Virus record (IMG/VR): IMGVR_UViG_3300041964_000036
Coordinates: 1 to 43,677 of that record
Source: a virus
Length of the DNA stretch: 43,677 bases
Reading direction: 5' to 3' (one strand)
Numbering within the stretch: the stretch's first letter is position 1; every line of letters starts with the position of its first letter. Of this stretch, positions 5,017 to 43,677 are shown piece by piece. Position numbers and translations under genes: made by a program. The notes beneath the pieces were generated by a model. That model made no database searches, was not told the origin of the DNA, and saw only the letters and a program-made list of their open reading frames with translations.

Positions 5017-6714
5017 GTAACAATTCAGCTATTCCTTGCGTTTTCTAACACTTAGCGGCTTCCCGCGGCACGCTCCTTCAAGCGCACCAAGCACCGCGCG
5101 CCCTTGCTTCCTCGTGGTTGAGAGATAGGAGCGGATGCGGCAGAACCTCCTCGCTCCTTCCTCTGTGCGGAAGCACCCCGAGGTCTTTTGTTGGAGTTTG
5201 ATCATCCTGAGATCACGCTCCGCCTGATTGTTGTCGAACGGCACCGAGAAGTCGGTCAGGAAGCGCAGCACCTCTTCCTTTCTCCGCTCCAGCCGGAGCA
5301 ACAAGTTGCGCCCCTGCTTCTGTACTCCCTCCGGCACATGCGAGGACGGCGGTACCTTCAGTCCTTCCGCGATCAGCCGGTCATAGCTGCCTGTCAGCGC
5401 TGCTAGTTTTTCTGCGCCCAGCCGCCGCCGCCCGCCATCAGCACTAACTTTCTCGACCTCCGTCTTCATCTCCAGCAGCAACTCTTTGAGCGGAGCAGCC
5501 CATGTCTTCGTCTCAACTCCTAATTCCTCAAAGAAGATCAGTTCGCGCAACAGGTGCGCCCCGCACAAGGCGTGGCGGGACTTCGGATAGAAGGTGTAAG
5601 AGAGCCAGCCGTCATGCACGCACGTCCCGCGGTACTGCGGCAGGATGCCGATGTCGTCCATCGCCGCCTTCCCTCTGCGCGCGTCCGCCCCATAATGCGT
5701 CAGCCGCGAGGTGCTCGCCACATGCACGTAGTGCAGCCGCCCCTCGACGCGCAACCCCGTCTCGTCGGCGTGAATGACTGGAGAGCGCCGCAACCCGCGC
5801 TTGATCTTCAACTCCGTCTCAACCAGCCCTGAGGCACATTGCCTGACGGCGCTGGCGAGCGTCCCCGCAGAGAGAGCGCAGCCGAACAGTTCTTTCATCG
5901 CCTCGGTCGTGCGCGCGTAAGGCAGCAGTTGATAGTCATGCAGGTAGAGCGCTCGGGCGAGGACTGACGGGCCATACTGCACGGTGGCTCTCACGCTCTC
6001 GGGGAACTCCGCCTTCGTGCGCTGCCCACATGAGGGGCAGCGCACGATCTCGGCCCGGTGTTCCGTGACTCGCAACCTCGCGGGGACGAGGTCAATCACT
6101 TGCCGCCGCTCGGTGCCGATCCTGTGCCCTGCCCCAAATGACCCGTGACAATGGCGGCACTGCGGCGGGCGGTGCGTGACGACGCGCGTCGGCTTCGGTG
6201 TCAGCCGTAACGTATGGCCTTGATGACCAAGCTGCCCACCCGGTCGCTGGCCTGATGGCCGCCGCAGGCTCTTCGTGCGCTTGCTCCAGGGCGGGTCAGT
6301 TGAGGGCGGGCGCGATGAGTTATGCGAGTCCTTCGTGATTACTGCTTCGAGTTCCGTGTTGCGGCGGCAGAGCCGGTGGTTGTCGCTGCGCGTCTCGCGT
6401 AACTCTTCCTGCAAGCGGGCGATCTGACCCTTGAGCCGTCCGATCTCCTCCGATAGTCCCTCGATGGCGCGCTGCTGCGTGTCAGGGTCGGGCGGGCCGT
6501 AGATGGCCTGAGTGCCGAGAGCCTGCTCGAAGAGACGAATGACCGCCGCCGGGCCGCGCAGATAAGTCTGGTAAATCTCATAGGAGGTCGGCATTAGAGC
6601 ACTTCCAGAGGAGGCATTGCGAGAGGAAACGGCTTATAGCCGACAGGAATGGCATCTTGGTGCCGCGCAAGTCGCTTTTTTGCTGTACTTTATACTACCT
6701 CCTGAACAGACACC
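5017..6714 (-). mobile_element. IS66-family insertion sequence
   Basis: A single-transposase element of 1,698 bp. The 8-bp sequence CGAGGCCG stands at 5009-5016 and again at 6715-6722, the exact target-duplication length known for IS66. The ends are weakly inverted: GTAACAATTCAG from 5017, and GGTGTCTGTTCAG read inward from 6714. The only gene is the transposase, whose stop lies 12 bp from the left end. It inserted in non-coding DNA, so it breaks no gene. The perfect duplication suggests a recent event. Confidence 0.93.
5029..6594 (-). CDS. tnpC: IS66-family transposase (TnpC type)
   Basis: 521 residues, the usual size. In order: a leucine-zipper-like coiled coil (about 41-85); the conserved SSRPPSTDPP and GQRPGGQLGHQG segments (about 93-127) typical of IS66; a zinc-binding part with CRHC (146-149) and CPSC (186-189); and the DDE core with Asp277 (HADETG), Asp328 (HDGW) and Glu459 (NNQAERDLR). 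It catalyses cut-and-paste movement of the element. There is no accessory tnpA or tnpB, so it belongs to the single-gene subgroup. No SD is seen before the start. It appears intact and could be active. Confidence 0.95.
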   Translation of the reverse strand: MPTSYEIYQTYLRGPAAVIRLFEQALGTQAIYGPPDPDTQQRAIEGLSEEIGRLKGQIARLQEELRETRSDNHRLCRRNTELEAVITKDSHNSSRPPSTDPPWSKRTKSLRRPSGQRPGGQLGHQGHTLRLTPKPTRVVTHRPPQCRHCHGSFGAGHRIGTERRQVIDLVPARLRVTEHRAEIVRCPSCGQRTKAEFPESVRATVQYGPSVLARALYLHDYQLLPYARTTEAMKELFGCALSAGTLASAVRQCASGLVETELKIKRGLRRSPVIHADETGLRVEGRLHYVHVASTSRLTHYGADARRGKAAMDDIGILPQYRGTCVHDGWLSYTFYPKSRHALCGAHLLRELIFFEELGVETKTWAAPLKELLLEMKTEVEKVSADGGRRRLGAEKLAALTGSYDRLIAEGLKVPPSSHVPEGVQKQGRNLLLRLERRKEEVLRFLTDFSVPFDNNQAERDLRMIKLQQKTSGCFRTEEGARRFCRIRSYLSTTRKQGRAVLGALEGACRGKPLSVRKRKE

Positions 6715-7678: not shown

Positions 7679-8369
7679 CCTCTCCGACCTCCTCGAAGAG
7701 CCTGACGCCCACTCTCAGGCGAGTGGACGCCCACAATCGGAACTAGTGGACGCCCACACCAGGATCGTGGACGCCAAGACGCCCACACCGGAACCGAAAG
7801 CGGACGCCAAGACGCCCACCGCGAAACCCGCCAGACGCCCACCGAAGAAGGTTGTGGACGCCCACAAAGGCGACCGGCACCGGGGAGACAAGGCGCGGCA
7901 GCACTTCCGCATCAGTCCCGAGAATGACGAGCGTTTCCGCATGTTCCGAGCGAAGCACCGGCTGGAGTTGCAGGAGTTCTACGAGCTGGCTGGCGTCCAC
8001 TTCATCGAGTGCGTGGACGCCCAGCGCGACGTGGGTGTGGACGCCGTGGCGTCCCTTGATGATAGAGATACGATGATACTGTTTAAGACTCACCCCCGTA
8101 TCATCAATCTCTACCTGCAATACAACCCTGAGAACAGGTGGAAACTGGCAGACGATCACGTCGGAGCGGCCTACAACGACAAGGACATCCGCCTCATCGA
8201 AACGGGTATAATCCAGACCCAGTTCAACGCCAAGTTCAAGAAGATAAACTCGTTCAAGTACTACACGGTGGAGATCGACGCGGCACTCGAAGTGCCGCTC
8301 CAAGACGAGACGATAGAGGTCATGCTGAAGCATGGGCGAAGGAGATGGAAGGAGGCCGTTGGCGCATAG
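7644..8369 (+). CDS. Putative replication initiator carrying the origin repeats
   Basis: 241 residues, with a strong SD (AAGGAGG, 6 nt before ATG) and 35-bp overlap with the ATPase gene. Residues about 20-80 are low-complexity (Ala/Pro/Thr/Lys) because this DNA is a repeat array. Residues 85-125 are charged and helical (QHFRISPENDERFRMFR). The C-terminal 110 residues look folded (ILFKTHPRIINLYLQYNP) and end in a basic helix. I recognise no family. The role is inferred from the array of GACGCCCAC/GTGGACGCC repeats inside the gene and from the neighbouring AAA ATPase, an arrangement like lambda O and its origin. It could instead be a partition or transfer DNA-binding protein. Confidence 0.6.
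   Translation: MVRADNPQRWNSLSDLLEEPDAHSQASGRPQSELVDAHTRIVDAKTPTPEPKADAKTPTAKPARRPPKKVVDAHKGDRHRGDKARQHFRISPENDERFRMFRAKHRLELQEFYELAGVHFIECVDAQRDVGVDAVASLDDRDTMILFKTHPRIINLYLQYNPENRWKLADDHVGAAYNDKDIRLIETGIIQTQFNAKFKKINSFKYYTVEIDAALEVPLQDETIEVMLKHGRRRWKEAVGA
7704..8045 (+). repeat. Iteron-like repeat array, probable replication origin
   Basis: GACGCCCAC occurs at 7704, 7726, 7749, 7778, 7811, 7834 and 7857, mostly 22-23 bp apart. GTGGACGCC occurs at 7723, 7746, 7767, 7854, 8013 and 8037, and inverted at 7992-8000. The 9-mer is read in all three codon phases (as DAH, as GRP/RRP and as KTPT), so the DNA rather than the protein is conserved. An AT-richer stretch follows at about 8055-8125. Iterons plus an AT-rich segment inside an initiator gene is the classic phage/plasmid origin layout. 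The binding protein is inferred to be the gene product itself. Confidence 0.75.
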
Positions 8370-10647
8370 GATAGGAGCTATCATACTCGGCTGGGTAATG
8401 GCGGCCATCGTGGCTAACGGCTTGGGCTACGCGCTCTATGCCGTCACCGACGCGGAGCCGCCTAACCGTCTCATAGCCTTCGCCTGCCTCCTCACCTCGA
8501 TAGTGACGTTTCTCGGCACGTTAATCCTCACGTGGCCGTTTCCTCCGCCGCCACCGCCGCCTAAGCCGGTGCCGCCCCCTCCGAAGCCGGAGCCCGAGCC
8601 CGAGCCACCCCCCGAACCCGTACCCGAGCCCGACCCCATCCCTAGGGAGCCGTGGCCGCTCTACGAGGGGTTGCTCATCGGCATCCACAAACGGCAGATT
8701 AGCTTCTGGCCCGATGAGGTGAAGTTCAAGGCAGAGCCGGTCTTCCTCGACGATGCGGACAGGGAAGCGCACATCCAGATTATCGGCGGTTCCAGGCGAG
8801 GGAAGACCAAGCTTATGGAACACGCTATCAGGCAGATGCTCCTCAGGGAACGGACGGGGATCATCGTGGTAGACCCCGCCCAGCACCTCTATGAGGCCAT
8901 GCTCGCCTGGTGCGTGGCTAATGACCACCCCGCACACCTGCTCGACGCATCCGACCTTGACAGCCAGGTAGGATTCAACCCGTTCCACCTCGACGACCCG
9001 ACCCCGGCGCGGATAGCAACGAAGGCAAACACGCTTCAGCAGACCACGGTGCGGGCGCTCGGGTACACGGGAACCGAGGCGATACAGGCCGGTATCATCA
9101 TGCGCTGCATGTTCTACGTCCTGATAGAGCAGCAGCTTCCCCTGTCGGACCTCAGGGCGTTCAAGGCACCGCGCCTGTTCGACCAGCGCGACGAGATGAT
9201 GAGCAACTGTCAGAACGAGGACATCCGCGACGAGTGGGATTCGCTCGTCGCAGGGAAGAAGGTACCGGCCTACAACGCCTTGATGCGTTCGAGCGCCAAC
9301 CGCCTGTTCGACATCATCGTGGAGCCGGGCGTGCAGCGCATCTTCACGAACCCGAAACGGCTCGACATCCAGGCGATCACCCAGCGGGGAGAGACCCTGC
9401 TCGTGAACCTGAAATCAAGCGGTACCCTCTCCAAGACCTCGCGCAACATCATCGGCACGTTCCTGGTGGACGAGATATGGAACGCCATGGAGGAACGCAC
9501 GACGCACGAGTCCGAAACGCTCGCTCCCGTTAACCTCATCGTTGACGAGTTCCAGAACTTCGCCTCGCCCCAATTCGCCACGATGCTCATGGAAGCCGCG
9601 AAGTTTCGCTTCCACCTCTGGCTCATCACGCACTCCTTCCACTCCCTGGATGCGAGCGTCACCAGCGCGTTCGACGACTGCCTGGTACGGATAGCCCTCG
9701 GCGGCACCCCGATGCGTGACGTGCCAATCGTCATGCCCGGCCTCTCGCGGGACGAGGTGGTAGCCACTCATCGGCGTACCAAGCGCTTCTTCATGCTCCG
9801 CAGGTCAGGCAAGGAAGATCTGGTATGCAGCACGGTGGGAATCAGAAAGGTCGAGGCGGACCCGGAGAAGCTGCGTGCCTATGTCGAAGCGGCGACCAGG
9901 ATTAAGGCAGAGCCAGCAGCGGAGCCGGAGGTACCGGCCTTACCCGAGCCCGAGCAGCAGCTACAATCGGAAGACTATGACGCCCCGGCCATGACCTACG
10001 AGAAGCCGACCGACCCGGCAGGGATAGTGCGCGAGCTGAGGTTCGCGACCATCGACCAAGTGGCCGCCATCGTCGCCAAGACCAAGACAATCCAGAGGCA
10101 GACTACCCGGCATAAGCTCGTGAGTTTGGCGGCGGAAGGGAAGCTGGACAAGCTCTCGCACAAGGGCAAGAGCGTCTTCTGCCTCCCCGGAGACTCTACG
10201 AAAATCCTCGAACACGACCTGAAGATCACCGACTTCCATGTACGCTTCTGGGACGACATCCTTTTGTGGGAGCAGAGAGGGCTGAAACGAGAGGGCATCA
10301 ACCCTGACGCCTTCTTCGCTACGGCGGTCGGCTACTTCTTCCTGGAAGTCGAGAACAGCAGGCCCCGCTCCGAGGACGGCGAATCGGCGCTCCTGAAGAA
10401 AGCCAGGCAGTACGCTGCCTACTATGACCGGGGAGCCCACCAGGAGAAGTGCGGCAACTTCCGGGACTTGGAAGTATTCGACCTGGAGACCGAGGCGAGG
10501 AACTACTGTAAGGCCGTCGCTAAGGCGATTGCCAAGGGAGAGTTTCACAATCCGGGTCGCTACTGGGCCACCTGGGGCGATTGTTCCACCTTCATCACCG
10601 CGAAAGGCACTACCCATTCCATTACCACCCCTGTTACCACCGACTAG
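8332..10647 (+). CDS. Membrane-anchored VirD4/TraD-like ATPase with winged-helix tail
   Basis: 771 residues from the ATG at 8332. A TTG at 8359 just after an AAGGAGG sequence is an alternative start. Order: two membrane helices (about 13-37 and 47-68), a proline-rich linker (69-107), an ATPase core with Walker A GGSRRGKT (152-159) and Walker B NLIVDEFQNF (401-410), then a region about 562-620 resembling the winged helix of replication-relaxation proteins (VRELRFATIDQVAAIV), and a C-terminal domain rich in Trp/Tyr/Phe. The first part matches type IV coupling proteins, which pump DNA through membranes during conjugation. The fused tail could recognise the origin. A DNA pump in a tailed phage is unexpected; partition or DNA ejection are alternatives. 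Confidence 0.8.
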   Translation: MGEGDGRRPLAHRIGAIILGWVMAAIVANGLGYALYAVTDAEPPNRLIAFACLLTSIVTFLGTLILTWPFPPPPPPPKPVPPPPKPEPEPEPPPEPVPEPDPIPREPWPLYEGLLIGIHKRQISFWPDEVKFKAEPVFLDDADREAHIQIIGGSRRGKTKLMEHAIRQMLLRERTGIIVVDPAQHLYEAMLAWCVANDHPAHLLDASDLDSQVGFNPFHLDDPTPARIATKANTLQQTTVRALGYTGTEAIQAGIIMRCMFYVLIEQQLPLSDLRAFKAPRLFDQRDEMMSNCQNEDIRDEWDSLVAGKKVPAYNALMRSSANRLFDIIVEPGVQRIFTNPKRLDIQAITQRGETLLVNLKSSGTLSKTSRNIIGTFLVDEIWNAMEERTTHESETLAPVNLIVDEFQNFASPQFATMLMEAAKFRFHLWLITHSFHSLDASVTSAFDDCLVRIALGGTPMRDVPIVMPGLSRDEVVATHRRTKRFFMLRRSGKEDLVCSTVGIRKVEADPEKLRAYVEAATRIKAEPAAEPEVPALPEPEQQLQSEDYDAPAMTYEKPTDPAGIVRELRFATIDQVAAIVAKTKTIQRQTTRHKLVSLAAEGKLDKLSHKGKSVFCLPGDSTKILEHDLKITDFHVRFWDDILLWEQRGLKREGINPDAFFATAVGYFFLEVENSRPRSEDGESALLKKARQYAAYYDRGAHQEKCGNFRDLEVFDLETEARNYCKAVAKAIAKGEFHNPGRYWATWGDCSTFITAKGTTHSITTPVTTD

Positions 10648-10877
10648 CCCGATTACCAGCCGTAAGAGAAAGGGAACAAAGGGGCTAACCGCCGACCTAC
10701 CACTTCGGCTTATAAGTCCTAGTTTCAGTAGGTATACTGAAATCTAGTACCTTATAGCCCTTTCTGCCGCGCCGCCCCGTCCAGTCACCCCGCGTAGCCC
10801 GCGATCCCTCGGTCCCTTCCGAACGGACGGAGCGCGGCATCCCTTATTCATTACGCGACTCCGGGTGGACTCCGCCG
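10648..10877 (+). other. Intergenic structured element between the two ATPase genes
   Basis: No gene in 230 bp. From about 10675 to 10761 the DNA folds as a multi-arm element: AAAGGGGCTAA closes with TTATAGCCCTTT, one arm is ACTT/AAGT, and a second is CTAGTTTCAGTA/TACTGAAATCTAG with a GGTA loop (TTTCAGTA 10723-10730, TACTGAAA 10735-10742). The overall shape is tRNA-like, but it lacks tRNA consensus bases. It may be a leader RNA, terminator or attachment-type site. Confidence 0.45.
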
Positions 10878-12065
10878 ATGCTTGGAATCGACTCCTATGA
10901 CCGCCCCGTTTCTTTCACACCCGGAACCCACACGGGCATCTTCGGCCGCACCGGAACCGGCAAGACGAACCTGCTCGAACACATCGCGGCAACGGCGATA
11001 GATTCCGGCATCTGCATCATCGACCCGCACGGCGAGCTGGTTGACCGCTTCCTCGGGCTCATCCCGGACCACAGGAAGAATGATGTCATTCTGATTGACC
11101 CGCTGGCCGACCGGGTTCCGGGGATAAACTTCCTCGAAGGAGGCGAGGACGCCCTACTCATCGAGCACGTCGTCCGGCTGTTCAAGAATCTCTGGGGCGA
11201 CGCCTGGGGCGCTCGCTCCGAATGGCTCCTCGCAAACATCACCTACGCCCTCCTCGCCGCTGGCCCGGCGTCCCTGGTATCCATCGGCAAGTCGCTGACC
11301 AGCTCCGCGTACAGGAGGGAGCTGGCGACCGGAGCTGACCCCTATCTCGAACAATTCTTCTCGCACTTCAACTCCTGGACCCCGGCCTTCCGGCAGGAGG
11401 TGATAACGCCAATCCTGAACAAGGCTACGAGGCTCACGCTCAACCCTCATATCAGGGCCGTGCTCGGGCAGGCGACCAGCAGCTTCAGCTTCACCGAGGC
11501 GATGGACGAGAAGCGCATCATCCTGGTACGGCTTCCGAGAGGCTTGCTCGGGGAGGCATCGACGCTACTGGGCTGCGCTATCTTCACCAAGCTCACCCTC
11601 GCCGCGCTCGAACGAAAGACCACCGACCCGTACCTCGTGGTAGTCGATGAGGCGCACACGTTCACGAAAGGCGTTGACCTTCCCGTGACGCTGGCCGAGT
11701 GCCGCAAGTACGGATTGTTCGTCACGCTCGCGACGCAGAACCTGGAACTGCTCTCGCTCGAAGACCGGGCGGGAATCTTCGCCAACTGCGGAACCCTCAT
11801 CAGCTTCCGCACCTCGGCCCAGGACGCGAAAGTGATTGCGCCGGAACTGGGGAGCGACTGGCAGCCCCGCGCCGTGCAGAACCTCCCGAACTTCCACGCG
11901 CTCTACCGGACGATGGGGAAGGACATGCCCACGCCGCCCGTGGTGCTACGGGTCGCCCCGCCCCTCACCCCTCAAAGCAACGGCGTCAGGGAGGAGAGCC
12001 TACGTCGCTGGGGACACCCGAAGGACAAGGTAGAGGCCCGGATTCGGAGGCATCTGAGGCGCTGA
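10878..12065 (+). CDS. VirD4/HerA-like DNA-translocase ATPase (DUF87/TraM-recognition type)
   Basis: 395 residues. Walker A GRTGTGKT lies at 23-30, followed by the IDPHGELVDRFL segment typical of conjugative DNA-transfer ATPases. Walker B YLVVVDEAH is at about 252-260, and a sensor segment (LATQNLE) at about 284-290. It has no membrane helices, unlike the larger ATPase upstream, so the pair may be a membrane pump and a soluble partner. The family forms hexamers that move double-stranded DNA. No relaxase or secretion channel is encoded here. A terminase-independent role in replication, segregation or transfer is inferred. Confidence 0.85.
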   Translation: MLGIDSYDRPVSFTPGTHTGIFGRTGTGKTNLLEHIAATAIDSGICIIDPHGELVDRFLGLIPDHRKNDVILIDPLADRVPGINFLEGGEDALLIEHVVRLFKNLWGDAWGARSEWLLANITYALLAAGPASLVSIGKSLTSSAYRRELATGADPYLEQFFSHFNSWTPAFRQEVITPILNKATRLTLNPHIRAVLGQATSSFSFTEAMDEKRIILVRLPRGLLGEASTLLGCAIFTKLTLAALERKTTDPYLVVVDEAHTFTKGVDLPVTLAECRKYGLFVTLATQNLELLSLEDRAGIFANCGTLISFRTSAQDAKVIAPELGSDWQPRAVQNLPNFHALYRTMGKDMPTPPVVLRVAPPLTPQSNGVREESLRRWGHPKDKVEARIRRHLRR

Positions 12066-12111: not shown

Positions 12112-12621
12112 ATGAATACTGAAAGAAAGGAACTAATAGCACAGTTGCGTTCGGGCGTCAGGCCCATGACTTACAGGATGATTGGCGAGATGCTCGGAGT
12201 CAGCGGACAGCGAGTGCAGCAAATCCACACGGGGTATCGCTCCCATTCCAAATGGAAGCCGAAGCCGAAGCCGCCCGAGGAGCATAAGATTCTCACGCGG
12301 GCGAAGCTGCTCAGCATGGGGTTCCCGGCAAACGTTCCGAATACTACCAAGTCTGGAGGGCTGGATTACGTCAGAGAGTGGGTTAGGATTCGAGACAATC
12401 ACACATGCCAGATGTGCTTCAAGGTCTGGAAAGAGGGGGAGCGCAGGCTCGACGTTCACCACACGGACGAGGACTTAGAGGGTAGGAGCAAAGAGCGGGG
12501 AATCGCCGCGCTCGACCGGGCCAACATGGACAAGATGATTACGCTCTGCCACAAGTGCCATTTCAGCCTCGACAGCGTGCGGCGCAGCATTTCCAAGGGT
12601 TCTAAGGCTATTGACTTCTGA
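12112..12621 (+). CDS. HNH endonuclease with N-terminal helix-turn-helix
   Basis: 169 residues from MNTERKELIAQL, preceded by GGAGG very close to the ATG; a TTG start at 12076 is less likely. The N-terminus (TYRMIGEMLGVSGQRVQQIH) is a helix-turn-helix of the type that reads DNA. The C-terminus has the HNH zinc core: CQMCFKVW, then LDVHHTDED, then ITLCHKCHFSLD. This is a free-standing, homing-type nuclease plan common in phages. It is the last gene before the promoter at 12611, which overlaps its 3' end. Confidence 0.85.
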   Translation: MNTERKELIAQLRSGVRPMTYRMIGEMLGVSGQRVQQIHTGYRSHSKWKPKPKPPEEHKILTRAKLLSMGFPANVPNTTKSGGLDYVREWVRIRDNHTCQMCFKVWKEGERRLDVHHTDEDLEGRSKERGIAALDRANMDKMITLCHKCHFSLDSVRRSISKGSKAIDF

Positions 12622-12684
12622 CAAGGGGGGAATACACTTAAGGCATCGGTTGTCAGGCCGATACCACTCAAAACAACCCACACC
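12611..12684 (+). promoter_or_regulatory. Promoter plus GTCAGG-hairpin, A/C-rich leader (copy A)
   Basis: TTGACT (12611-12616), 16 nt, TACACT (12633-12638). Then a hairpin, GGCATCGG (12642-12649) with CCGATACC (12658-12665), whose loop includes GTCAGG (12652-12657). An unstructured A/C-rich stretch follows, with no SD, running up to the ATG at 12685. Confidence 0.7.
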
Positions 12685-12915
12685 ATGAACCAGGAAATAA
12701 TCGTTTGCGAGACGTGCGAGGACACCCGCACCGTCCTCAATGACAAGAACCTCGTAGTTGATTGCCCGGACTGCGCCGTCTGCGAGCACTGCAACGGAAC
12801 AGGCGTCTATGAGAACGATGACGAGACCGAGCAGACCTGCGTATGCCGCGTAGCAGACGCGGTGGACGCGGAGATGATAAAGGGCGGGGAGGAGCAGCAC
12901 GACCGTGGCCTCTAA
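12685..12915 (+). CDS. Small DnaJ-type Cys-rich protein
   Basis: 76 residues with four CxxC-type pairs (CETC, CPDC, CEHCNGTG, CVC) resembling the DnaJ central zinc finger, without a J domain. It likely binds zinc; the partner is unknown. First gene of the transcript started at 12611. No SD, and the ATG is preceded by the A/C-rich leader. Confidence 0.7.
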   Translation: MNQEIIVCETCEDTRTVLNDKNLVVDCPDCAVCEHCNGTGVYENDDETEQTCVCRVADAVDAEMIKGGEEQHDRGL

Positions 12916-12916
12916 C

Positions 12917-13270
12917 ATGAGGCCCGGCATTCACAAGGTTGGTGACAACCCCTCGCGCTTCATACATAAGGGGAAGCCGGGAGACATCGACCTTTACGAG
13001 ACCTGGAAAGACGGCAAGCAGACCATTCGGGAAATCAAACATAAGGCTGTTCGCTGCTCGAAGCAGGGATGTGAGAACGAGGCGACCCGCTTCTACACCC
13101 TCAACAGCATCGACATGTACGTCTGCCTCGAACACCCGGACACGGAAGCAGCGGAGGAGTCAGGAACGTACGTGCTGCCGGACGGCACCAGCACCGAGCT
13201 GGTCACGTACTGCTGCGACCCGGACTGCGGCGAGGAAGACAGCGAGCCGTGCGAGGTCTGCCACGAGTAA
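12917..13270 (+). CDS. Small Cys-rich hypothetical protein
   Basis: 117 residues from the ATG one base after the stop of the previous gene (a GTG at 12905 is the alternative). It has scattered Cys/His pairs (CSKQGCENEATRF, CLEH, CCDPDCGEE, CEVC), suggesting one or two zinc-binding ribbons. No known family. Translational re-initiation from the gene before is likely. Confidence 0.6.
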   Translation: MRPGIHKVGDNPSRFIHKGKPGDIDLYETWKDGKQTIREIKHKAVRCSKQGCENEATRFYTLNSIDMYVCLEHPDTEAAEESGTYVLPDGTSTELVTYCCDPDCGEEDSEPCEVCHE

Positions 13271-13287
13271 TCACACCAACCATTCAC

Positions 13288-13464
13288 ATGAACAACACTG
13301 GAAACAATCACAGCTTCCACGCCGACCCCTCGGAGATTCACGCCTCCAAGGGACGGTACATCCGCGACGGCAAGGCCGCGCTCAGCATCGCCGCAGTCCT
13401 CGTAATCATCATCGCTGCCGCGCTGTTCGTGCGATACGGATTCGCCGCGCCAGCTCTCAACTAA
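13288..13464 (+). CDS. 58-residue single-pass membrane protein
   Basis: Starts MNNTGNNHSFHAD after the A/C-rich stretch CACACCAACCATTCAC, with no SD. A polar half is followed by one membrane helix (about residues 30-52, ALSIAAVLVIIIAAALFV). Lies between the Cys-rich genes and the ERF gene. Function unknown. Confidence 0.6.
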   Translation: MNNTGNNHSFHADPSEIHASKGRYIRDGKAALSIAAVLVIIIAAALFVRYGFAAPALN

Positions 13465-13467
13465 CCA

Positions 13468-13989
13468 ATGACACAAACCACCAAGCCCGAGGAGAAGCCG
13501 AAGTCCATCTACCAGAAGATAGCCGTCGTCCAGGCCACCATCGGCGTATTAGAGAAGGACAAGACCAATCCAGCCTTCCGCTCCAAGTACGTCGATGTGA
13601 ACACCATCGCGGAGAAGATAATCCCGCTCATGGCTGACCAAAACATCCTCATGACCATGCCCGTGAGCATCGGCGAGGAAGGGAAGCAGATAATCAGCCT
13701 GTACTTCCACGACCTCGATACGGGCGAGGAAATCTGCCCGGCAGCAGCCTACCTTCCCGAGAACGTGACCATCCAGCAGCTCGGCAGCGCTATCACGTAT
13801 CTAAGGCGCTACCTCCCCGTCAGCTACTTCTACCTCCAGGCCGAGGACGACGATGGCAACCAGGCGAGCACCAAACCAGAGCGACCGGCGCAGAAGCCAG
13901 CCACGCGCCCCGAAGCCCAGCACCAGGGCGATGACATCCCCGTCATCGTCATGGACGACAGCGACCCGCTCGCAGAACTCACCAAGTAA
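13468..13989 (+). CDS. erf: ERF-family single-strand annealing protein
   Basis: 173 residues. The N-terminal 115 residues match the ERF recombination fold: KYVDVNTIAEKIIPL, then LGSAITYLRRYLPVSYFYL and the acidic EDDDGN motif that mark the family. The tail is Pro/Gln-rich and ends acidic. ERF proteins anneal complementary single strands during phage recombination and circularisation. It lies just before an SSB-like gene and NinG, a standard recombination set. The ATG is 3 nt after the previous stop, without SD. Confidence 0.9.
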   Translation: MTQTTKPEEKPKSIYQKIAVVQATIGVLEKDKTNPAFRSKYVDVNTIAEKIIPLMADQNILMTMPVSIGEEGKQIISLYFHDLDTGEEICPAAAYLPENVTIQQLGSAITYLRRYLPVSYFYLQAEDDDGNQASTKPERPAQKPATRPEAQHQGDDIPVIVMDDSDPLAELTK

Positions 13990-13998
13990 GCCACCGCA

Positions 13999-14325
13999 AT
14001 GATTACCAACCGCATCACCATCACCGTAGACCTCACCAAGCTCGACAAGAGCCGCATCAAGACTCGTAACTACGAGCGCAACGGGGAGCAGTTTACCGCC
14101 AAGGAAATACAGCTCGACATCGTGCCGCTCCGCGAGCGGGAGATAAAGAAAGAGGGCGAGACCTGGCGGCTCCTCAAGACCTGTTTCGTAGCCGAGGCTC
14201 CGACCAAGGAGGAGCGGCAATCGAAGGCAAAGACCAGCATCGTAGGGGACGGCGTCGAGTTCCAGGACATCCAGGCCCCGGCGACCGAGGCCGGGGACCA
14301 GTTGGATTCGACCCTGCCGTTCTAG
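13999..14325 (+). CDS. SSB-like single-stranded DNA-binding protein
   Basis: 108 residues. The beta-rich body starts ITVDLTKLDKSRIKTR, a pattern seen in small phage SSB-like proteins. The acidic flexible tail ends DSTLPF, like the protein-recruiting tip of bacterial SSB. It would coat the strands that the ERF protein anneals. Directly followed by ninG (stop TAG abuts ATG). Confidence 0.75.
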   Translation: MITNRITITVDLTKLDKSRIKTRNYERNGEQFTAKEIQLDIVPLREREIKKEGETWRLLKTCFVAEAPTKEERQSKAKTSIVGDGVEFQDIQAPATEAGDQLDSTLPF

Positions 14326-14823
14326 ATGCTGAAGCGCTCCGCCCCGAGGCGCAGCATCAAGCCGTTGAAAAGAGCCGCCCCCGCACGCGGCTCTCGCGGC
14401 AGCACGGCGGCGAAGAAAGCTCACAAGAAGACCAAGGAGAAGTCAGTCAGCGCGTGGAAGAAGAAAGTCGATAGCGTCGTCAGCATCCATGTCAGGCAGA
14501 GCGGAGCGGACGCCGCAGGGATCGCCGAGTGCTACACGTGCGGCAAGCTCGCTCACTGGAAGACGCTACAGTGCGGTCACTTCGTCTCGCGCAATAACTC
14601 GGCCACCCGCTATGACCCGGAAAATCTGAGGATTCAATGCGCTGGCTGTAATGTCTGGGGCCGGGGCCGCTATGACGTGTACGCCGACAAGCTCATGGAC
14701 GAGCTCGGAGTAGACAGGTTCCGCGACCTCCTCAAGCGCGGCCGGTCAACGCACACGTTCACCGTCCCCGAACTCAAGGCCCTCTACGAAAAGTTTTCCA
14801 CAGTGACTCCGACCCCTGATTAG
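14326..14823 (+). CDS. ninG: NinG/Rap recombination nuclease
   Basis: 165 residues. A basic N-terminus is followed by the NinG signature: CYTCGKLAHWKTLQCGHF, then SRNNSATRYDPENLRIQC and AGCN, an HNH-like zinc core. In lambda this Holliday-junction and branched-DNA endonuclease supports Red-type recombination. Its position after the ERF and SSB genes fits. The promoter for the next transcript begins inside its 3' end (14803). Confidence 0.92.
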   Translation: MLKRSAPRRSIKPLKRAAPARGSRGSTAAKKAHKKTKEKSVSAWKKKVDSVVSIHVRQSGADAAGIAECYTCGKLAHWKTLQCGHFVSRNNSATRYDPENLRIQCAGCNVWGRGRYDVYADKLMDELGVDRFRDLLKRGRSTHTFTVPELKALYEKFSTVTPTPD

Positions 14824-14874
14824 GTACACTTAGGGCAGCCCCCGTCAGGCTGAATCACACCAAACACACACACG
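14803..14874 (+). promoter_or_regulatory. Promoter plus GTCAGG-hairpin, A/C-rich leader (copy B)
   Basis: GTGACT (14803-14808), 16 nt, TACACT (14825-14830). GTCAGG lies at 14844-14849, 13 nt after the -10 exactly as in copy A. CAGCC (14836-14840) pairs with GGCTG (14848-14852). Then an A/C-only-type leader runs to the ATG at 14875. Confidence 0.7.
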
Positions 14875-15177
14875 ATGAAAGCACAGGAACTCAAGGCAAA
14901 GATGCGGGAGAGGTTCGATGCCGCTCTCAACGGCTACACAACTCCGGTTCAGGAGCACATTTGGCGCACCGTTGTCGTCCTCATAGACGAGGTACGCACG
15001 GAGACCCTGAAAGAGGCGGAGGCGGCCATACCGGAGGAAAGCGTCCTCGACCCGCTCGCGTATCCGTTCGAGCCGCAGTGGTACACGACCCACTCCGAGT
15101 CTGATGGCTGGAACACATGCCGCCGCGCGACACTCGAAGCCCTGCACGACCTCGCCAACCCCTCACAACCCCAATGA
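14875..15177 (+). CDS. Hypothetical protein, 100 residues
   Basis: First gene behind leader copy B. Mostly helical with a coiled N-terminal half (AQELKAKMRERFDAAL) and no recognisable motif. Its TGA overlaps the ATG of the next gene (ATGA), implying coupled translation. The next protein has a similar make-up (LETIKQEALERL, EEAVEAF), so the two may be related or form a complex. Confidence 0.65.
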   Translation: MKAQELKAKMRERFDAALNGYTTPVQEHIWRTVVVLIDEVRTETLKEAEAAIPEESVLDPLAYPFEPQWYTTHSESDGWNTCRRATLEALHDLANPSQPQ

Positions 15178-15449
15178 CCAAGACCCTAGAGACAATCAAG
15201 CAGGAGGCACTGGAGCGGCTTGCCCAGGACTTCACTCACCGCACAGACGGCAAAAGGCCGCAGCTTCACCCGGACTCGCTATGGAACGTGAAGCTCGTCT
15301 ACCTCCTCTCCTTAGCCCTAGACCGCGCAGTAGCCGCGACGCTGGAGGAGGCGGTAGAGGCGTTCGACCAGGATACATGCGACCAGTGCGGTGCTTACCT
15401 GAAGCCTCAAGTCCGCGCCGCCCTCCGTTCTCTCACGACCAATGACTAA
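15174..15449 (+). CDS. Hypothetical protein with CxxC, 91 residues
   Basis: The start MTKTLETIKQ is set by the ATGA overlap with the gene before. Helical, with one CDQC pair near residue 71. Overlaps the following gene by 8 bp. No family recognised. Confidence 0.6.
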   Translation: MTKTLETIKQEALERLAQDFTHRTDGKRPQLHPDSLWNVKLVYLLSLALDRAVAATLEEAVEAFDQDTCDQCGAYLKPQVRAALRSLTTND

Positions 15450-15909
15450 GGTTTGCAACGGCTGTGGTATCGAGAAGCCGACCACAGACTACTATCGGAG
15501 AAACGCGAGGAAGCAGAAAATCCAGTCTAGGTGCAAGGCGTGCACGGCTCTATACGATGCCGCCCGACGAGCACGGATAGTGGAAGCTGAAAGACTACGT
15601 CTCAGGAAAAGGCGTGAGGAAGAAGTAAGGACTGGCAAGGCAAAGGAGAAGTACGCGCTCGCCGTCAAACGTAACCCGCAGCACTACGCGGCAAGATACG
15701 CAGTTAGCACGGCCATACGCTGCGGTAAGCTCGTTAAGGCCCCTTGTGTGGAGTGTGGAGAGCCAAAGGTGCAAGCACACCACCTCGACTACTCGAAAGC
15801 TCTGGACGTGGTATGGCTTTGCATGAAGCACCACCGCGACCTCCACAGGAAGTACCCAGTCGCCCTCGGAGCCAGGACGGAGACCACCCGCCACACACCG
15901 ACCACATGA
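15442..15909 (+). CDS. HNH-type endonuclease with zinc ribbon
   Basis: 155 residues. N-terminal ribbon CNGCGIEKPTTDYY...CKACTALY, a long basic helix, then an HNH-like core: CVECGEPKVQAHHLDY followed by VWLCMKHHRDLHR. This is the standard pattern of small phage HNH proteins that bind DNA through the ribbon and cut it with a beta-beta-alpha-metal site. Overlaps its neighbours on both sides. Confidence 0.8.
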   Translation: MTKVCNGCGIEKPTTDYYRRNARKQKIQSRCKACTALYDAARRARIVEAERLRLRKRREEEVRTGKAKEKYALAVKRNPQHYAARYAVSTAIRCGKLVKAPCVECGEPKVQAHHLDYSKALDVVWLCMKHHRDLHRKYPVALGARTETTRHTPTT

Positions 15910-16493
15910 CCGATTACAAGTTCGTGACCTGCTACGAGAAGGGCTGCGAGGAGACCTCGGGCCTCAAGCCGTACATGACCGGCATCGAGTTCCTGTGCGA
16001 CCGACACGCTCCCCAGGAGGGCGAGGAGCATGACTGCGAGTGCTTGGAGGGGAATCCGTATTCTCTCATTCCTTGCAAATGCCCCTGCCATGCCCCCAAG
16101 GCCAAGAGCACGAAAGTCATCAAGGGCGTCTCCTGCCAGATGACCGTGAGCGTGCCCCAGGCAGAGCTTCCGATGGACGACTTACTAACGCAAATCACTA
16201 GGAAGGCCGCTGAGTCCCTCGCGCGCTCGCAGGAAGCTCTTGCGTTGACATTCCTTCAGGAGAACGGCGCGAGCGTGAAGGACATTGAGCTTGTGCAACA
16301 GCACCTACCCGATGGCATGAGATTCTTCTACCGCGTCAGGCCGAAAGAAGACGACATCTTGAGCAAGATGGAGTACCAGGAGGTTATCGCCCTCGCCAAG
16401 CAGCAGGGAGTTGAAGAGGAGCGGGAGCGCATCAGGCGGGTATTGGGAGATGGCTTGGCCGACTTCGCAGATGGCAAGACGCTGGCCCGATGA
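15906..16493 (+). CDS. Hypothetical protein with N-terminal Cys/His cluster
   Basis: 195 residues from the ATGA overlap; a longer frame to 15744 is rejected because it runs inside the HNH gene. The first 65 residues hold many Cys/His (CYEKGCEE, CDRH, CECLE, CKCPCH), probably one or two zinc sites. The rest is helical (KAAESLARSQEALAL, EEERERIRRVL). No family recognised. Ends in an ATGA overlap with the next gene. Confidence 0.6.
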   Translation: MTDYKFVTCYEKGCEETSGLKPYMTGIEFLCDRHAPQEGEEHDCECLEGNPYSLIPCKCPCHAPKAKSTKVIKGVSCQMTVSVPQAELPMDDLLTQITRKAAESLARSQEALALTFLQENGASVKDIELVQQHLPDGMRFFYRVRPKEDDILSKMEYQEVIALAKQQGVEEERERIRRVLGDGLADFADGKTLAR

Positions 16494-16792
16494 TAGACAC
16501 GAATGCAGCCCACGCCCGCCTCTTCGCTCCCAAGCCCAAGGCCCAGGCGACACGTCACCAGGCGTTGGCCGAAGCAGCATGGAAGGAGCTGGAGCCCGGC
16601 GATCAAAACCTGAGACGCTACCTCCCCCGCTACCTGGCAGTCTACAAGAGCGCCGCCCTCGCCTTCATCGACCTCGAAGAACTCAGGGAGCGGGCCAAGG
16701 CCAAGCAGTATCCCGGCCGCTGGTTCCTCCAGTCGGCGCGAATAGTTCTGGGGATAACTAAAGCGAAGAGTGAGCAAAATAAGGGCTTTTGA
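16490..16792 (+). CDS. Hypothetical helical protein, 100 residues
   Basis: Coupled to the previous gene by an ATGA overlap. Basic and helical throughout (RHQALAEAAWKELEP, LEELRERAKAKQYPGRWF), consistent with DNA or protein binding, but no motif is identifiable. It is the last gene before the copy-C promoter. Confidence 0.55.
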   Translation: MIDTNAAHARLFAPKPKAQATRHQALAEAAWKELEPGDQNLRRYLPRYLAVYKSAALAFIDLEELRERAKAKQYPGRWFLQSARIVLGITKAKSEQNKGF

Positions 16793-16807
16793 GGCTATTG
16801 CGCCCTA

Positions 16808-16877
16808 TTGACTTTGCCTACCGCTACGCTAAGCTATAGGAGTTCCAGTCAGGGACACCCACCAATCACATCACACA
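16808..16877 (+). promoter_or_regulatory. Promoter plus GTCAGG-hairpin, A/C-rich leader (copy C)
   Basis: TTGACT (16808-16813), 16 nt, TAAGCT (16830-16835); a shifted TATAGG is possible. GTCAGG is at 16848-16853, 12 nt after the -10. GTTCC/GGGAC can pair around AGTCA. An A/C-rich leader follows to the ATG at 16878. Confidence 0.65.
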
Positions 16878-22187: not shown

Positions 22188-22460
22188 ATGCAGAACGGCG
22201 GAAAGAGACCAGGAGCAGGACGACCGAAAGGCGCTGTTTCAGGGCACACCAAGGAAGCCCTCATCTTCAAGGAGGAGCTTATCCGCCGCGTCCTGGAGGA
22301 GAAGGGGCCGATCATCGACGCCCTCATCAAGAAGGCCAAGGCCGGAGACGTTCAGGCTCTCAGGGAAATCAATGACCGGCTCCTCGGCAAGCCGCTCCAG
22401 CAGGTAGGGCTCGACGACGACACCATCAGCGCCCTCACTATCAGGTGGCTGAGCGAGTAA
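22188..22460 (+). CDS. terS: Terminase small-subunit-like protein
   Basis: 90 residues. The N-terminus GGKRPGAGRPKGAVSGHTKE is the Gly/Arg/Lys DNA-binding start seen in many phage small terminases, followed by helices (EELIRRVLEEKGPIIDAL). It ends with a 16-bp overlap with the large subunit. The small subunit recognises the packaging site and hands DNA to the motor. Assigned from the motif and position. Confidence 0.7.
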   Translation: MQNGGKRPGAGRPKGAVSGHTKEALIFKEELIRRVLEEKGPIIDALIKKAKAGDVQALREINDRLLGKPLQQVGLDDDTISALTIRWLSE

Positions 22461-23719
22461 TCGAGATCCCCTACGCGCCCCGCCCCTGGGCGTTAGACTT
22501 CCATACCAACGCGAAACGCTGGAACGTCCTGGTCATCCATCGCCGGGCAGGTAAGACGACGGCGGCAGTCAACCATCTCCAGAGAGATGCGCTGAGAACC
22601 AAGGCAGCTTCTACGCCTACGTCGCCCCGACCTACAAGCAGGCCAAGCTCATCGCCTGGGATCTCATCAAGAAGTATTCCCGGATGATTCCGGGAATCGA
22701 GTACAACGAGCAGGAGCTTACCGTTAAGTACCCGAACGGCTCCAAGATCCGTCTGTTCGGGGCCGACAATCCTGACTCACTTCGCGGCATAGGCTTATGG
22801 GGCGTGGTGTTCGACGAGTACAGCCAGCAGCCGAGTAACATCTTCTCTGAGATCATCCGGCCTGCGCTCGCGGACCACGCGGGCTACGCCATCTGGATCG
22901 GCACCCGAAAGGCAGAAACGACTTCTACCGCCTCTACCTGGGCGGCCTCAAGACGACGCTTGGTACGCCAAGCTCCTGAGCGTGCATGACACGGACATCC
23001 TGAACGAGCATGAGCTTCGCGATGCCCGGAAGGTGATGACCGAGGAGGAATACAACCAGGAATTCCTATGCAGCTTCGACGCTGCTATCAAGGGCTCCTA
23101 CTACGCCTCGGAGCTTCAGAAAGCCCGGAACGAGGGGCGCATCAAGCCCGGCATCTACGACGATTCCCTCTTGGTTCATACCGTCTGGGACTTGGGCATA
23201 GGCGACGCCATGGCTATCGGCTTCTACCAGAAGGTTGGGCCGGAGACCCGCATGGTGGATTACTACGAGAACACCGACCAGCCCTTGAGCCACTACGCGG
23301 CTCATCTCAATCAGAAGACCTACACGTACGGTAAGCACTTCGCGCCGCACGACATCGCCGTCAGGGAGCTCAGCACGGGCAAGTCGCGCCTCGAAGCGGC
23401 TAAGGCTCTGGGCATCAGGTTCGAGATAACCCCGAACCTTCCCGTGGATGACGGCATCAATGCTGGCCGGATGATGTTCGACCATCTCTGGATAGACGAG
23501 GCAAAGTGCGCCTACTTTCTCGACGCAATCGCCCAGTACCGGAGGGAGTGGGACGACGCGAAGGGCATGTTCAGGGAGACGCCGAGGCATGATTGGACAA
23601 GCCACGCGGCGGACGTGCATCGGTATGCGGCGATAGATGAGAAGCGTATGGCGAACCAGCTTCCCACCCCGCCGCCCACGCCAGGCGTGCAGCCCTACTA
23701 CCCGCAACTGGGCATCTAG
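22445..23719 (+). CDS. terL: Terminase large subunit, interrupted by three frameshifts
   Basis: Read across frames, this is a complete large terminase. The ATPase part has Walker A VIHRRAGKTT near 22530 and LWGVVFDEYSQ near 22800. The nuclease part (from 22982) has VHTVWDLGIGDAMAI, PHDIAVRELSTGKSR and DWTSHAADVHRY with the Asp residues that bind metal. Frame changes lie near 22595, 22908 (ACCCG where ACCCCG is expected for GTPKGRNDFY) and 22955. The motor pumps DNA into the procapsid and cuts it. Single-base steps in an otherwise conserved gene point to sequencing errors; decay is the alternative. Confidence 0.88.
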
Positions 23720-28550: not shown

Positions 28551-29648
28551 ATGCCTACAGCATATGCAACCAAGGTTGCTGAGGCTTTCTCCGGGACGAT
28601 TCTTAAGCACACCTACGAGTCCGCGCCGATTGACTGGATAGTCAACCGCGACTACGAAGGCCAGATTAATGCAGTCGGCTCCAAGCTGAACATTCTCAGC
28701 TTCGACAAGCTCACGGAGAAGACCTACACGGGCGCGAATCTGACCGTAGACGACATCTACGAGCAGAACAGCGTCCTGAACATCGACCAGTGGAAGTCCT
28801 TCTACTTCCGCATCAAGAAAATCGACCAGTGGAAGTCCTTCGTCAAGAACCCGAAAGGAACCGTTCTTGAGCAAAAGGGCGACGAGCGCGCGAAGAACGT
28901 CATGACGTACCTTCTCGGCTTCTGGGGCGATGTCGCAGCGGGCAACCGCATCGGCACCGACTACACCACCGGCACGGTAGCGGTCGCAACCGGCACCGGC
29001 GTCGTCACCGGCACGGGCACGACCTTCACCGCAGCGATGGTCGGCAAGCCGTTCAAGGCCACCGGCCACACGACCTGGTATCGCGTCAAGACCTTCACCT
29101 CAGGGACCTCGATCACCATCGAGGACGACTCTGACGACAACGCATCGGCCTACACGGGCGGCGCGATTTCGGCAGGCGCGACCTACGTCATCCAGGCCGT
29201 GACCGCGATTGCGATCACCACGGCCAACTTCCTCCAGTACGTCGCGGCTCTCAAGGCCAGACTCGACCTGGCGGAAGTCCCCGAGCGCGACCGCGTTCTC
29301 TTCCTCCCCCCGGAGGCGGCGAGCGTCTACTACCGCGCGACGGGCATCGTCCTCGCCGTGCCGCAGGTCTACAACGACATCGTGAAGAACGGCGAGATCC
29401 AGAATCTCCTCGGCTTCAAGGTCGTGCAGACGCTCCGGCTTGCGGGAGACAACACGAACGGGTACCACGCGCTGGCTATCCAGCGGTCATGGCTCACGTT
29501 CGCCGACAAGGTGCTCGAAACAGGCATGGAGGAAGACCTCATCGGTAACTTCGGTGCCGCGTATAAGGACCTCTACGTCTATGGTGCGCTTGTGGCCGAC
29601 GCACGGCGCAAGTACGCAGCCGAACTGTTTGCGACCTTCACCGCATAG
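28551..29648 (+). CDS. Major capsid protein with inserted Ig-like domain
   Basis: 365 residues, directly after the scaffold. Body segments such as NRDYEGQINAVGSKLNIL, TVDDIYEQNSVLNIDQWK and the C-terminal VPERDRVLFLPPEAASVYYR resemble P22-type/HK97-fold coat proteins. Residues about 139-217 (GTVAVATGTGVVTGTGTTFT to ATYVIQ) are a beta-rich insert that also occurs in the tail hub at 31676. A 21-bp exact repeat (28782-28802 and 28821-28841) doubles IDQWKSF. Coat and insert would form the shell and its surface knobs. Start ATGCCT after ACAACTAA, no SD. Confidence 0.85.
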   Translation: MPTAYATKVAEAFSGTILKHTYESAPIDWIVNRDYEGQINAVGSKLNILSFDKLTEKTYTGANLTVDDIYEQNSVLNIDQWKSFYFRIKKIDQWKSFVKNPKGTVLEQKGDERAKNVMTYLLGFWGDVAAGNRIGTDYTTGTVAVATGTGVVTGTGTTFTAAMVGKPFKATGHTTWYRVKTFTSGTSITIEDDSDDNASAYTGGAISAGATYVIQAVTAIAITTANFLQYVAALKARLDLAEVPERDRVLFLPPEAASVYYRATGIVLAVPQVYNDIVKNGEIQNLLGFKVVQTLRLAGDNTNGYHALAIQRSWLTFADKVLETGMEEDLIGNFGAAYKDLYVYGALVADARRKYAAELFATFTA

Positions 29649-38005: not shown

Positions 38006-38073
38006 TCCAGGCAATCGGAATGGTCGTGGCCGTGTTCGTCCTCTGGATATTCATCGTCCTGACGAACCGATGA
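38002..38073 (+). CDS. 23-residue membrane peptide
   Basis: MIQAIGMVVAVFVLWIFIVL, then TNR: almost entirely one membrane helix. Its ATG overlaps the previous TGA, and its TGA overlaps the next ATG (ATGA on both sides), so it is coupled in a chain. That exact fit makes a real gene likely despite its size. It sits at the head of the lysis genes: possibly a pinholin or holin regulator. Confidence 0.55.
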   Translation: MIQAIGMVVAVFVLWIFIVLTNR

Positions 38074-38654
38074 AGCCGGTCGCGGTCCTGTTCATCTACG
38101 ACAAGGCGATAGACAAGAGGTGGCTACAGCGCACCGTGGAGCGCGTCTCTCAGCGCCTGGAAGCCTCTGCCGGACTCACTATCAGGGCCAGGTACGAGCG
38201 CCACGATCTCCAGCCCCGCTTCGCTGAGTACGAGCCGGAGACCAAGACGATAGAACGCTGGATTCCCTTCTCCTGGATGAGGGAGAACGTCGGCCCCCTC
38301 ACGCGCGGGGAACACGCCGCAATGCTCTGCCTGAATCGCAAGCGCTGGCCCAGTGACTCAATCGTCGCCGGACGCTGCGAGTACAGCCCCTACAACGGGC
38401 AGACCTACCTCATCCACCTCCGGGCGGAGAAGGGCGAGAAGCGCGGCAAGTACGAGCTGGCGGAGGATTCTATCTTCCACGAGCTGCTACACACCTTTGA
38501 GGCTCAGACCGGGCACTTCCACATAGTTCACAAGAACGTAAACGACCTCGAAGCAGCAGCCCGGGAGCTGAAGGTGATACTAGATCGCTCCGCTTCGCTT
38601 GCCGCCACAATTGCTATACTGACGAAACAGATAGCAGCCCTCCTCAGACGATGA
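38070..38654 (+). CDS. Zincin-like protein with HExxH motif
   Basis: 194 residues. Around residues 136-150 it has FHELLHTFEAQTGHFHIVH: HELLH is the zinc-binding HExxH motif, with more His within ten residues as possible third ligands. The N-terminal 120 residues are alpha/beta (VAVLFIYDKAI, TYLIHLRAEKGEK), and a C-terminal helix follows. A metallopeptidase acting on wall or host proteins is plausible from the motif and from the peptidase gene next door, with which it overlaps by 4 bp. Family unknown. TATACT near its 3' end may be a promoter for the next gene. Confidence 0.6.
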   Translation: MKPVAVLFIYDKAIDKRWLQRTVERVSQRLEASAGLTIRARYERHDLQPRFAEYEPETKTIERWIPFSWMRENVGPLTRGEHAAMLCLNRKRWPSDSIVAGRCEYSPYNGQTYLIHLRAEKGEKRGKYELAEDSIFHELLHTFEAQTGHFHIVHKNVNDLEAAARELKVILDRSASLAATIAILTKQIAALLRR

Positions 38655-39154: not shown

Positions 39155-39218
39155 CCACCCGGTCAGGAGGTGCTAGGCTTTAGGCGGAGAAACACCAACC
39201 CAACCCATCCACATCACC

Positions 39219-41799: not shown

Positions 41800-41850
41800 T
41801 GAGTATCTTGAATTGGTGAACTGTCCTGACGTAGGACTGCCCTAAGCATA
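41800..41850 (-). promoter_or_regulatory. GTCAGG-hairpin leader (copy D) of the AT-hook gene
   Basis: On the minus strand, TATGCT (41845-41850) is followed by TAGGGCAG and, 14 nt after the -10, by GTCAGG (41825-41830). GTCCT/AGGAC pairs around ACGTC. Then an A/C-rich leader runs to the ATG at 41799. The -35 is weak. The start of this leader (TTAGGGCAG) equals that of copy B. Confidence 0.6.
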
Positions 41851-41962: not shown

Positions 41963-42454
41963 ATGACTATTTCCGAACCAACCAGGGTTTGTCATAGGTG
42001 TGGGCTTACCAAGCCACTGACCCTGTTCTATAAGAAGAAAGATTGCAGAGACGGCAGAACGCTCGACTGCAAGGTTTGTCGTAGCGCGTACGTTAACAGC
42101 AGGACGACGCCTGAGATGCGGCGAGCGAGATACCTCAAGAGCAGAAGCCGCGTTGTGGCTCGCAACCAAACGCCTCCGGGCAAGTACGTTATGTACAAGG
42201 GCTCTGCGAAGGGTAGGGGTGTTGAGTTCTTGCTAAGCCGCGACCAGTTCGAGGCGTTCTGGCAACAGCCTTGTTTCTACTGCGAGGCCGAGATAGCGAC
42301 CATAGGGCTCGATAGAATCGACAGCAGGCAGGGCTATATCGTAGATAATGTCCGGCCCTGCTGCACTGATTGCAATACGATGAAGTTTGCCTTGCCAGTA
42401 GATGTGTTTCTAGAGAAGTGCCGCGCCATTGCTGCGCGTTTTCCTAACCCATGA
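41963..42454 (+). CDS. HNH endonuclease with zinc ribbon
   Basis: 163 residues. N-terminal ribbon CHRCGLTKPLTLFY...CKVCRSAY, a basic linker, then the HNH core: CFYCEAEIATIGLDRIDSRQ, then YIVDNVRPCCTDCNTMK with its zinc Cys pairs and catalytic Asp/Asn. A typical free-standing phage nuclease, the third HNH-type gene here besides NinG. Its stop overlaps the lysozyme gene's ATG. Confidence 0.85.
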   Translation: MTISEPTRVCHRCGLTKPLTLFYKKKDCRDGRTLDCKVCRSAYVNSRTTPEMRRARYLKSRSRVVARNQTPPGKYVMYKGSAKGRGVEFLLSRDQFEAFWQQPCFYCEAEIATIGLDRIDSRQGYIVDNVRPCCTDCNTMKFALPVDVFLEKCRAIAARFPNP

Positions 42455-42984
42455 AGCGAGCCGCCATATGCGGCTTGATAGCCGCCTCCGTCCTCATCCC
42501 CATAACTGCCCACGCACGCGGAAGCCTCGAAGACCAATCATATGAGATCGTGACCCGTGCCGTGTCTTCAGCGCAGGCCGCGCCTTACGTCCCCATCGAG
42601 GAAGTCCCCACGGAGGCGGCTTTGGTGAAGACCGCGCAGGCGGTTGAGAAGGCACCGGCGAAGATTCGTAAGGTAACAAGTGTTACCTATCAGAATCAGT
42701 CCGACCTTATGTCTCACTGGGCAGCAGTCATGGACCAGCTCGGCACCGTTCACAAGACCACGCTGCTCCGCATGATTAAGTGCGAGAGCGGGGGCCGGGA
42801 GAAGATTGTCGTCTGGGACGTTCACTCGAACTCCTACGGCATCCTCCAGTTCAAGACGCCCACCTGGGATTGGTTCTCCCAGAAAGCAGGTATCTCCGGC
42901 TCACCACTTGACGGGGCAAAGGCAATCCAGGTCGCGGATTGGGCCTTGAGCAATAACCTCGGCCATCACTGGACCTGCCGCTAG
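42451..42984 (+). CDS. Secreted lysozyme/transglycosylase-like protein (Rpf-like fold)
   Basis: 177 residues. The signal peptide MKRAAICGLIAASVLIPITA is followed by HARG, a linker rich in Ala/Val/Glu, then a lysozyme-fold domain at about 95-177: LLRMIKCESGG with the catalytic Glu in CESGG, NSYGILQFKTPTWDWFSQKA, GAKAIQVADWALSNNLGHHW. This matches transglycosylase-like domains that cut the sugar chain of peptidoglycan. Secreted, so it could act from outside in lysis or biofilm. Coupled to the HNH gene (ATGA). The end of the gene is repeated, badly, at 1-663. Confidence 0.85.
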   Translation: MKRAAICGLIAASVLIPITAHARGSLEDQSYEIVTRAVSSAQAAPYVPIEEVPTEAALVKTAQAVEKAPAKIRKVTSVTYQNQSDLMSHWAAVMDQLGTVHKTTLLRMIKCESGGREKIVVWDVHSNSYGILQFKTPTWDWFSQKAGISGSPLDGAKAIQVADWALSNNLGHHWTCR

Positions 42985-43015
42985 GTTATCAACAGGCGAT
43001 GGAGAGGCAGCTTGC

Positions 43016-43021
43016 TATGCT
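43016..43021 (+). promoter_or_regulatory. -10 box of a leaderless transcript
   Basis: TGCTATGCT with TATGCT at 43016-43021 ends 6 nt before the ATG at 43028. The same arrangement is found at the left copy (about 695-700). The -35 is not clear. Confidence 0.5.
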
Positions 43022-43027
43022 TCAGGT

Positions 43028-43594: not shown

Positions 43595-43677
43595 TGCAGG
43601 AGAAACTGTACATCTCGCGCAACCTCGGATACGACCCGAAGACTCAGGCCACGTACACGGTCTCGGAGCGCAAGTTC
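43594..43677 (+). CDS. Partial: 5' end of the small gene continued at 1265
   Basis: MQEKLYISRNLGYDPKTQAT runs off the window end. It is the same gene as 1265-1506 on the circular unit. The overlap TGATG with the gene before is identical in both copies. Confidence 0.75.
   Translation, partial: MQEKLYISRNLGYDPKTQATYTVSERKF

Follow-up and report, generated by a model that had tools for sequence, protein, structure and literature searches.

The phage genome and its promoter-proximal hairpins

The window, meaning the whole virus record of 43,677 bases analysed here, comes from a phage from soil. It encodes an Erf-like annealing protein, a NinG-like nuclease, HNH and endonuclease VII-like proteins, a DNA methyltransferase and a terminase, as well as coupling-ATPase and Replic_Relax-like proteins. 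Genes of the last two kinds are typical of plasmids; they adjoin the early region both in the window (8332-12065) and in related contigs L250, L251, L261 and L283, and some members of the clade carry two paralogous copies. The terminase large subunit is apparently split into up to three ORFs (22445, 22684 and 22982; 22445-23719), and several relatives match all three separately. The ends of the record overlap by about 860 bp (489-1348 against 42808-43677) with small indels, and the spacing between the two copies shifts from 42318 to 42330. Such an overlap suggests a unit of about 42.3 kb that is circular or circularly permuted, one copy carrying sequencing indels. The six best genome matches of the IS66 transposase (5029-6594; 64-78% identity) are all Acidobacteria MAGs, gp4 and Pyrinomonadaceae among them, and the next matches fall to 46-47%. 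Judged from this insertion sequence alone, the host is probably an acidobacterium of Blastocatellia. Phages of Acidobacteria are little studied.

Four predicted transcripts carry GTCAGG 12-14 nt past the -10 box and inside a hairpin of 4-7 bp, an arrangement read directly in the sequence and as the earlier note had described it. Their predicted starts lie near 12645, 14836 and 16842 (+ strand) and 41837 (- strand). In all four copies the predicted +1 is the start of the hairpin's 5' arm. The features, with promoter boxes assigned from sequence, are as follows.

12611..12638, + strand: promoter 1, TTGACT, 16 nt, TACACT
12645..12662, + strand: hairpin 1 at the predicted +1, AUCGGUU-GUCA-GGCCGAU; GTCAGG at 12652-12657, 13 nt past the -10
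12663..12684, + strand: leader 1, A/C-rich, no Shine-Dalgarno (SD) sequence; the ATG at 12685 opens the Erf/NinG operon (12685-14823)
14803..14830, + strand: promoter 2, GTGACT, 16 nt, TACACT
14836..14852, + strand: hairpin 2, CAGCC-CCCGUCA-GGCUG; GTCAGG at 14844-14849, 13 nt past the -10
14853..14874, + strand: leader 2, A/C-rich, no SD; the ATG at 14875 opens the next early operon
16808..16835, + strand: promoter 3, TTGACT, 16 nt, TAAGCT
16842..16856, + strand: hairpin 3, GUUCC-AGUCA-GGGAC; GTCAGG at 16848-16853, 12 nt past the -10
16857..16877, + strand: leader 3, A/C-rich, no SD; the ATG at 16878 opens the third early operon
41845..41850, - strand: -10 box 4, TATGCT, without a good -35
41823..41837, - strand: hairpin 4, GUCCU-ACGUC-AGGAC; GTCAGG at 41830-41825, 14 nt past the -10
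41800..41822, - strand: leader 4, no SD, of the leftward AT-hook gene (41799-41341)

Copies 1 and 2 are identical over TACACTTA..GTCAGG with equal spacing, bearing out what had been noticed of the two strongest copies; 0.03 chance matches to this composite would be expected in the window. The stem begins 5-7 nt past the -10 in every copy, and the bases just past the -10 are common to copies 1, 2 and 4 (TTAnGGCA). The spacer sequences between -35 and -10 are unrelated; simple recent duplication therefore does not explain the copies.

The configuration was counted as a -10 box followed, 4-8 nt later, by the beginning of a stem (4 bp or longer) around a hexamer, with all hexamers tallied. GTCAGG occurs in it four times against 0.10 expected, any other hexamer of this genome at most twice, and letter permutations of GTCAGG average 0.09. 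These counts support the suggestion of an element common to the AT-hook gene and the early genes. Regardless of context, GTCAGG shows only a mild excess across the genome (37 against 27 +/- 5). It is the commonest hexamer of leader DNA (6 against 0.5 expected, P 1.5e-5, uncorrected for the hexamers tried), one of the six, at 22131, being probably or possibly coding. After correction for all 4096 hexamers, enrichment of GTCAGG is no more than moderate. The shared GTCAGG element is real and beyond chance, seen so far in one genome alone and in four copies.

Pairing in the hairpins and the nature of the leaders

The hairpins are weak to modest, with folding energies of -5.6 to -7.8 kcal/mol. The loop has GUC(A) on its 3' side in all four, and GG begins the 3' arm, one U-A pair coming first in copy 4. 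The partners of GG make U-G or C-G pairs. Outward of these, the third pair from GG is G-C, G-C, U-G and U-A in copies 1-4 and the fourth is G-C, A-U, U-A and G-C; these two positions vary on both sides and are paired in every copy, while the next pair outward forms in three of the four. The 5' arms fall in different alignment columns because the loop lengths differ, and the five bases directly 5' of GTCAGG are CGGTT, CCCCC, TTCCA and CCTAC in copies 1-4. With GTCAGG kept fixed and the remaining bases shuffled, the hairpins have P values of 0.03, 0.02, 0.09 and 0.13 (copies 1-4), combined 0.0024. The earlier note had proposed a search for compensating stem changes, and the outcome agrees with it: the arms vary on both sides yet pair, at a joint P of about 0.002 with n = 4. 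No one of the four window hairpins alone is clearly more stable than its dinucleotide shuffles, and Rfam gave no family match at gathering score in the window.

Two familiar identities were considered and rejected. A/C-rich sequence with no U run lies downstream of each hairpin, which does not fit intrinsic terminators or attenuators. A symmetric DNA operator would have two conserved half-sites; here GTCAGG alone is conserved. A further GTCAGG at 39162 (intergenic, 39155-39217), before an A/C-rich leader and an ATG, was left uncounted, there being no -10 at the right distance and a fold no better than shuffles. The complement, CCTGAC, occurs in the loop of a hairpin covering the ATG of ORF 38070 (38050-38076). 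A kissing interaction between GTCAGG and this hairpin is possible; the fold at 38070 is no better than shuffles.

The A/C-rich, SD-less leader had been described as part of the element. It is indeed present at the four sites and is not specific to them: SD is absent at 34 of the 40 gene starts examined, and A+C reaches 67% in the 20 nt 5' of starts against 54% for the genome. (Three of the 40 listed start positions were 1-2 bases off the ATG, which leaves the picture unchanged.) Since such leaders precede most core genes of the phage, they do not belong to the element. Some starts look leaderless, with TAnnnT 6-9 nt 5' of the ATG (23758, 31296, 33793 and 36557). Related soil phages have the same form of promoter, TTGAC, mostly 16 nt, then TAnnnT, with leaderless or A/C-rich starts (at many sites in L249-L287), and the common TACACTTA is therefore partly a clade-wide promoter form. 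Leaderless genes were found in all three Acidobacteria genomes surveyed, at a mean of 13.3% (PMC3160421), and the leaderless-type starts of this phage are in keeping with that survey.

Relatives, databases and genomes of the probable host order

Through the capsid-like protein (28551-29648) about 50 related soil phage contigs (L199-L248) were reached, in which the late, portal-to-capsid, gene order is conserved; about 20 of the underlying records were examined in more detail. INPHARED held no match to the capsid-like or portal-like proteins of the clade. Absence of the motif from relatives had been named beforehand as evidence against the element, and the outcome speaks against conservation across the family: none of the related contigs read has a GTCAGG hairpin at a promoter. 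Three formal matches were rejected, having no A/C leader or downstream gene start, and trinucleotide counts over the leader hairpins of relatives revealed no common loop. Relatives sought through NinG, Erf, the AT-hook protein, the IS66 transposase and TerL were distant or none, and no elements were found in them.

In IMG/VR the exact composite pattern gave 16 matches. Most fall in a single coding sequence that recurs in low-GC phages, and none has the hairpin or leader. The promoter plus GTCAGG pattern gave 48 contigs, most of the matches lying inside long open frames and none showing the hairpin-plus-leader arrangement; one contig (L303, 31% GC) is loosely similar, the only such case among the 48. 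Across 119 genomes from the probable host order, GTCAGG promoters matched in 5, not above a backward control pattern, and a TerL search of the same 119 genomes, run without a positive control, found no prophage.

The closest relative, G120 (L249-L251), has a hairpin of another sequence at the corresponding place. Its promoter is TTGACG-16-TAGTAT; 4 nt further on comes AUGUAGC-CCGUCCA-GCUACAU and then an A/C-rich leader, at the opening of the equivalent early operon just downstream of a coupling-ATPase homologue. This hairpin (on L251) has 7 bp, sits at the predicted +1, scores z -2.4 against shuffles and has a loop, CCGTCCA, unlike that of the GTCAGG copies. Its 10-mer GTAGCCCGTC recurs once in G120, again within an intergenic inverted repeat. 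Among 32 intergenic promoters from the clade and the window together, 2 have +1 hairpins of at least 6 pairs where about 0.46 would be expected, which hints that the clade may favour hairpins at the 5' terminus. Elsewhere, the related contigs L277 (about 8307) and L256 (about 12429) have TTGACA-17-TATGCTTAGGGCA, which agrees with copy 4 between its -10 and +1, and then the palindrome AGGGCAACTGCCCT with no GTCAGG.

A candidate 5'-terminal RNA tag

We tentatively propose, as the best of the available explanations though one held at somewhat less than even confidence, that the element is a small phage-specific RNA stem-loop at the 5' end of four mRNAs, acting in cis to mark or protect them. The argument can be summarised as (i) the pairing survives changes of sequence, which favours a role in RNA over a DNA operator; (ii) the hairpin sits at the predicted +1, which favours a role at the mRNA 5' end, be it protection from decay, binding of a factor, or both. 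The 7-bp hairpin of G120 at the equivalent operon counts in favour; the weak single folds and the lack of GTCAGG hairpins at the promoters of the relatives examined count against. A host-type promoter (TTGAC, 16 nt, TAnnCT) would set +1 roughly where the stem begins, and if transcription begins at the usual distance from the -10, the hairpin would be the very 5' end of the message. It would then act in cis on the RNA, shielding the 5' end of a message that is otherwise unstructured and SD-less from 5'-end-dependent decay, if the probable host degrades mRNA in that way. The invariant loop edge may be the recognition site of one phage or host factor, by which the transcripts would gain a common fate. 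The messages so marked would be those of three early operons (replication, recombination and nuclease genes) and of the AT-hook gene. A narrower version, which we regard as doubtful, is a 15-18 nt tag (stem, GUCA loop edge, GG) confined to the mRNAs of one class of genes, set by placement of the promoter and read by a dedicated RNA-binding factor of phage or host.

Precedents exist for the protective part of the proposal. In both E. coli and B. subtilis, mRNA can be stabilised by a hairpin at its 5' end, and in E. coli such a hairpin hinders conversion of the 5' end by RppH (PMC3997798). The ompA, papA and aprE leaders have 5'-terminal stabilising stem-loops (Emory, Bouvet and Belasco 1992 and others, cited in PMC3997798). 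The phage hairpins resemble these in being small and at or near the mRNA 5' end with an unstructured leader behind. They differ in that the same loop edge and closing pairs recur in four transcripts, and in that stabilisation is here only proposed. To our knowledge, a shared loop motif is not a feature of known stabilising stem-loops of this kind. A repeated RNA element close to the start of early operon messages also recalls put of HK022 (about 70 nt, two stem-loops) and nut of lambda (boxA and the boxB hairpin), whereas this phage has a single hairpin of 15-18 nt.

The earlier note had left open whether the element is an operator or an RNA structure. The varying but paired arms favour RNA without amounting to proof, and the operator is still the main rival, a serious one that we judge less probable. 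Under it, GTCAGG at about +7 to +13 would be a double-stranded site through which one regulator switches four promoters jointly, the hairpins being incidental. Like repressor operators, the motif is a fixed short sequence near the +1 of several promoters: the conserved part is primary sequence, six invariant bases held nearly fixed at 12-14 nt from the -10. Its prevalence in leader DNA and the TTAnGGCA shared by copies 1, 2 and 4 fit the same account, and a copy at the AT-hook gene would suit autoregulation. Repressor operators of early phage promoters, however, tend to have two-fold symmetry and two conserved arms, whereas here one arm alone is conserved and its inverted counterpart varies while staying paired, unlike the operator of a dimer. 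The distance from the -10 varies by 2 nt, and no recognisable helix-turn-helix regulator was seen among the early proteins scanned.

We think it improbable, more so than the operator, that chance or drift has placed a promoter-associated hexamer without function of its own in weak hairpins. The modest folding energies, the corrected enrichment, the absence of the promoter hairpin from the relatives examined and the IMG/VR scans, and the background-level result in the host order would all be expected of such a hexamer. Against this stand the four occurrences where 0.10 are expected and the next hexamer reaches two, the position of every copy at the opening of a leader, and the unrelated spacers. 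Recruitment of ribosomes, which the earlier note had raised and which would make up for the SD missing from all four leaders, is very unlikely because most SD-less genes of the phage (SD-less at 34 of 40 starts) do without the hairpin, and the clade has many starts of leaderless type.

If the hairpins do act on RNA as we propose, a phage of SD-less genes would single out a set of its mRNAs through their first 15 or so nucleotides. The promoter grammar of the clade (TTGAC, 16 nt, TAnnnT, leaderless or A/C-rich starts) helps to annotate such phages regardless.
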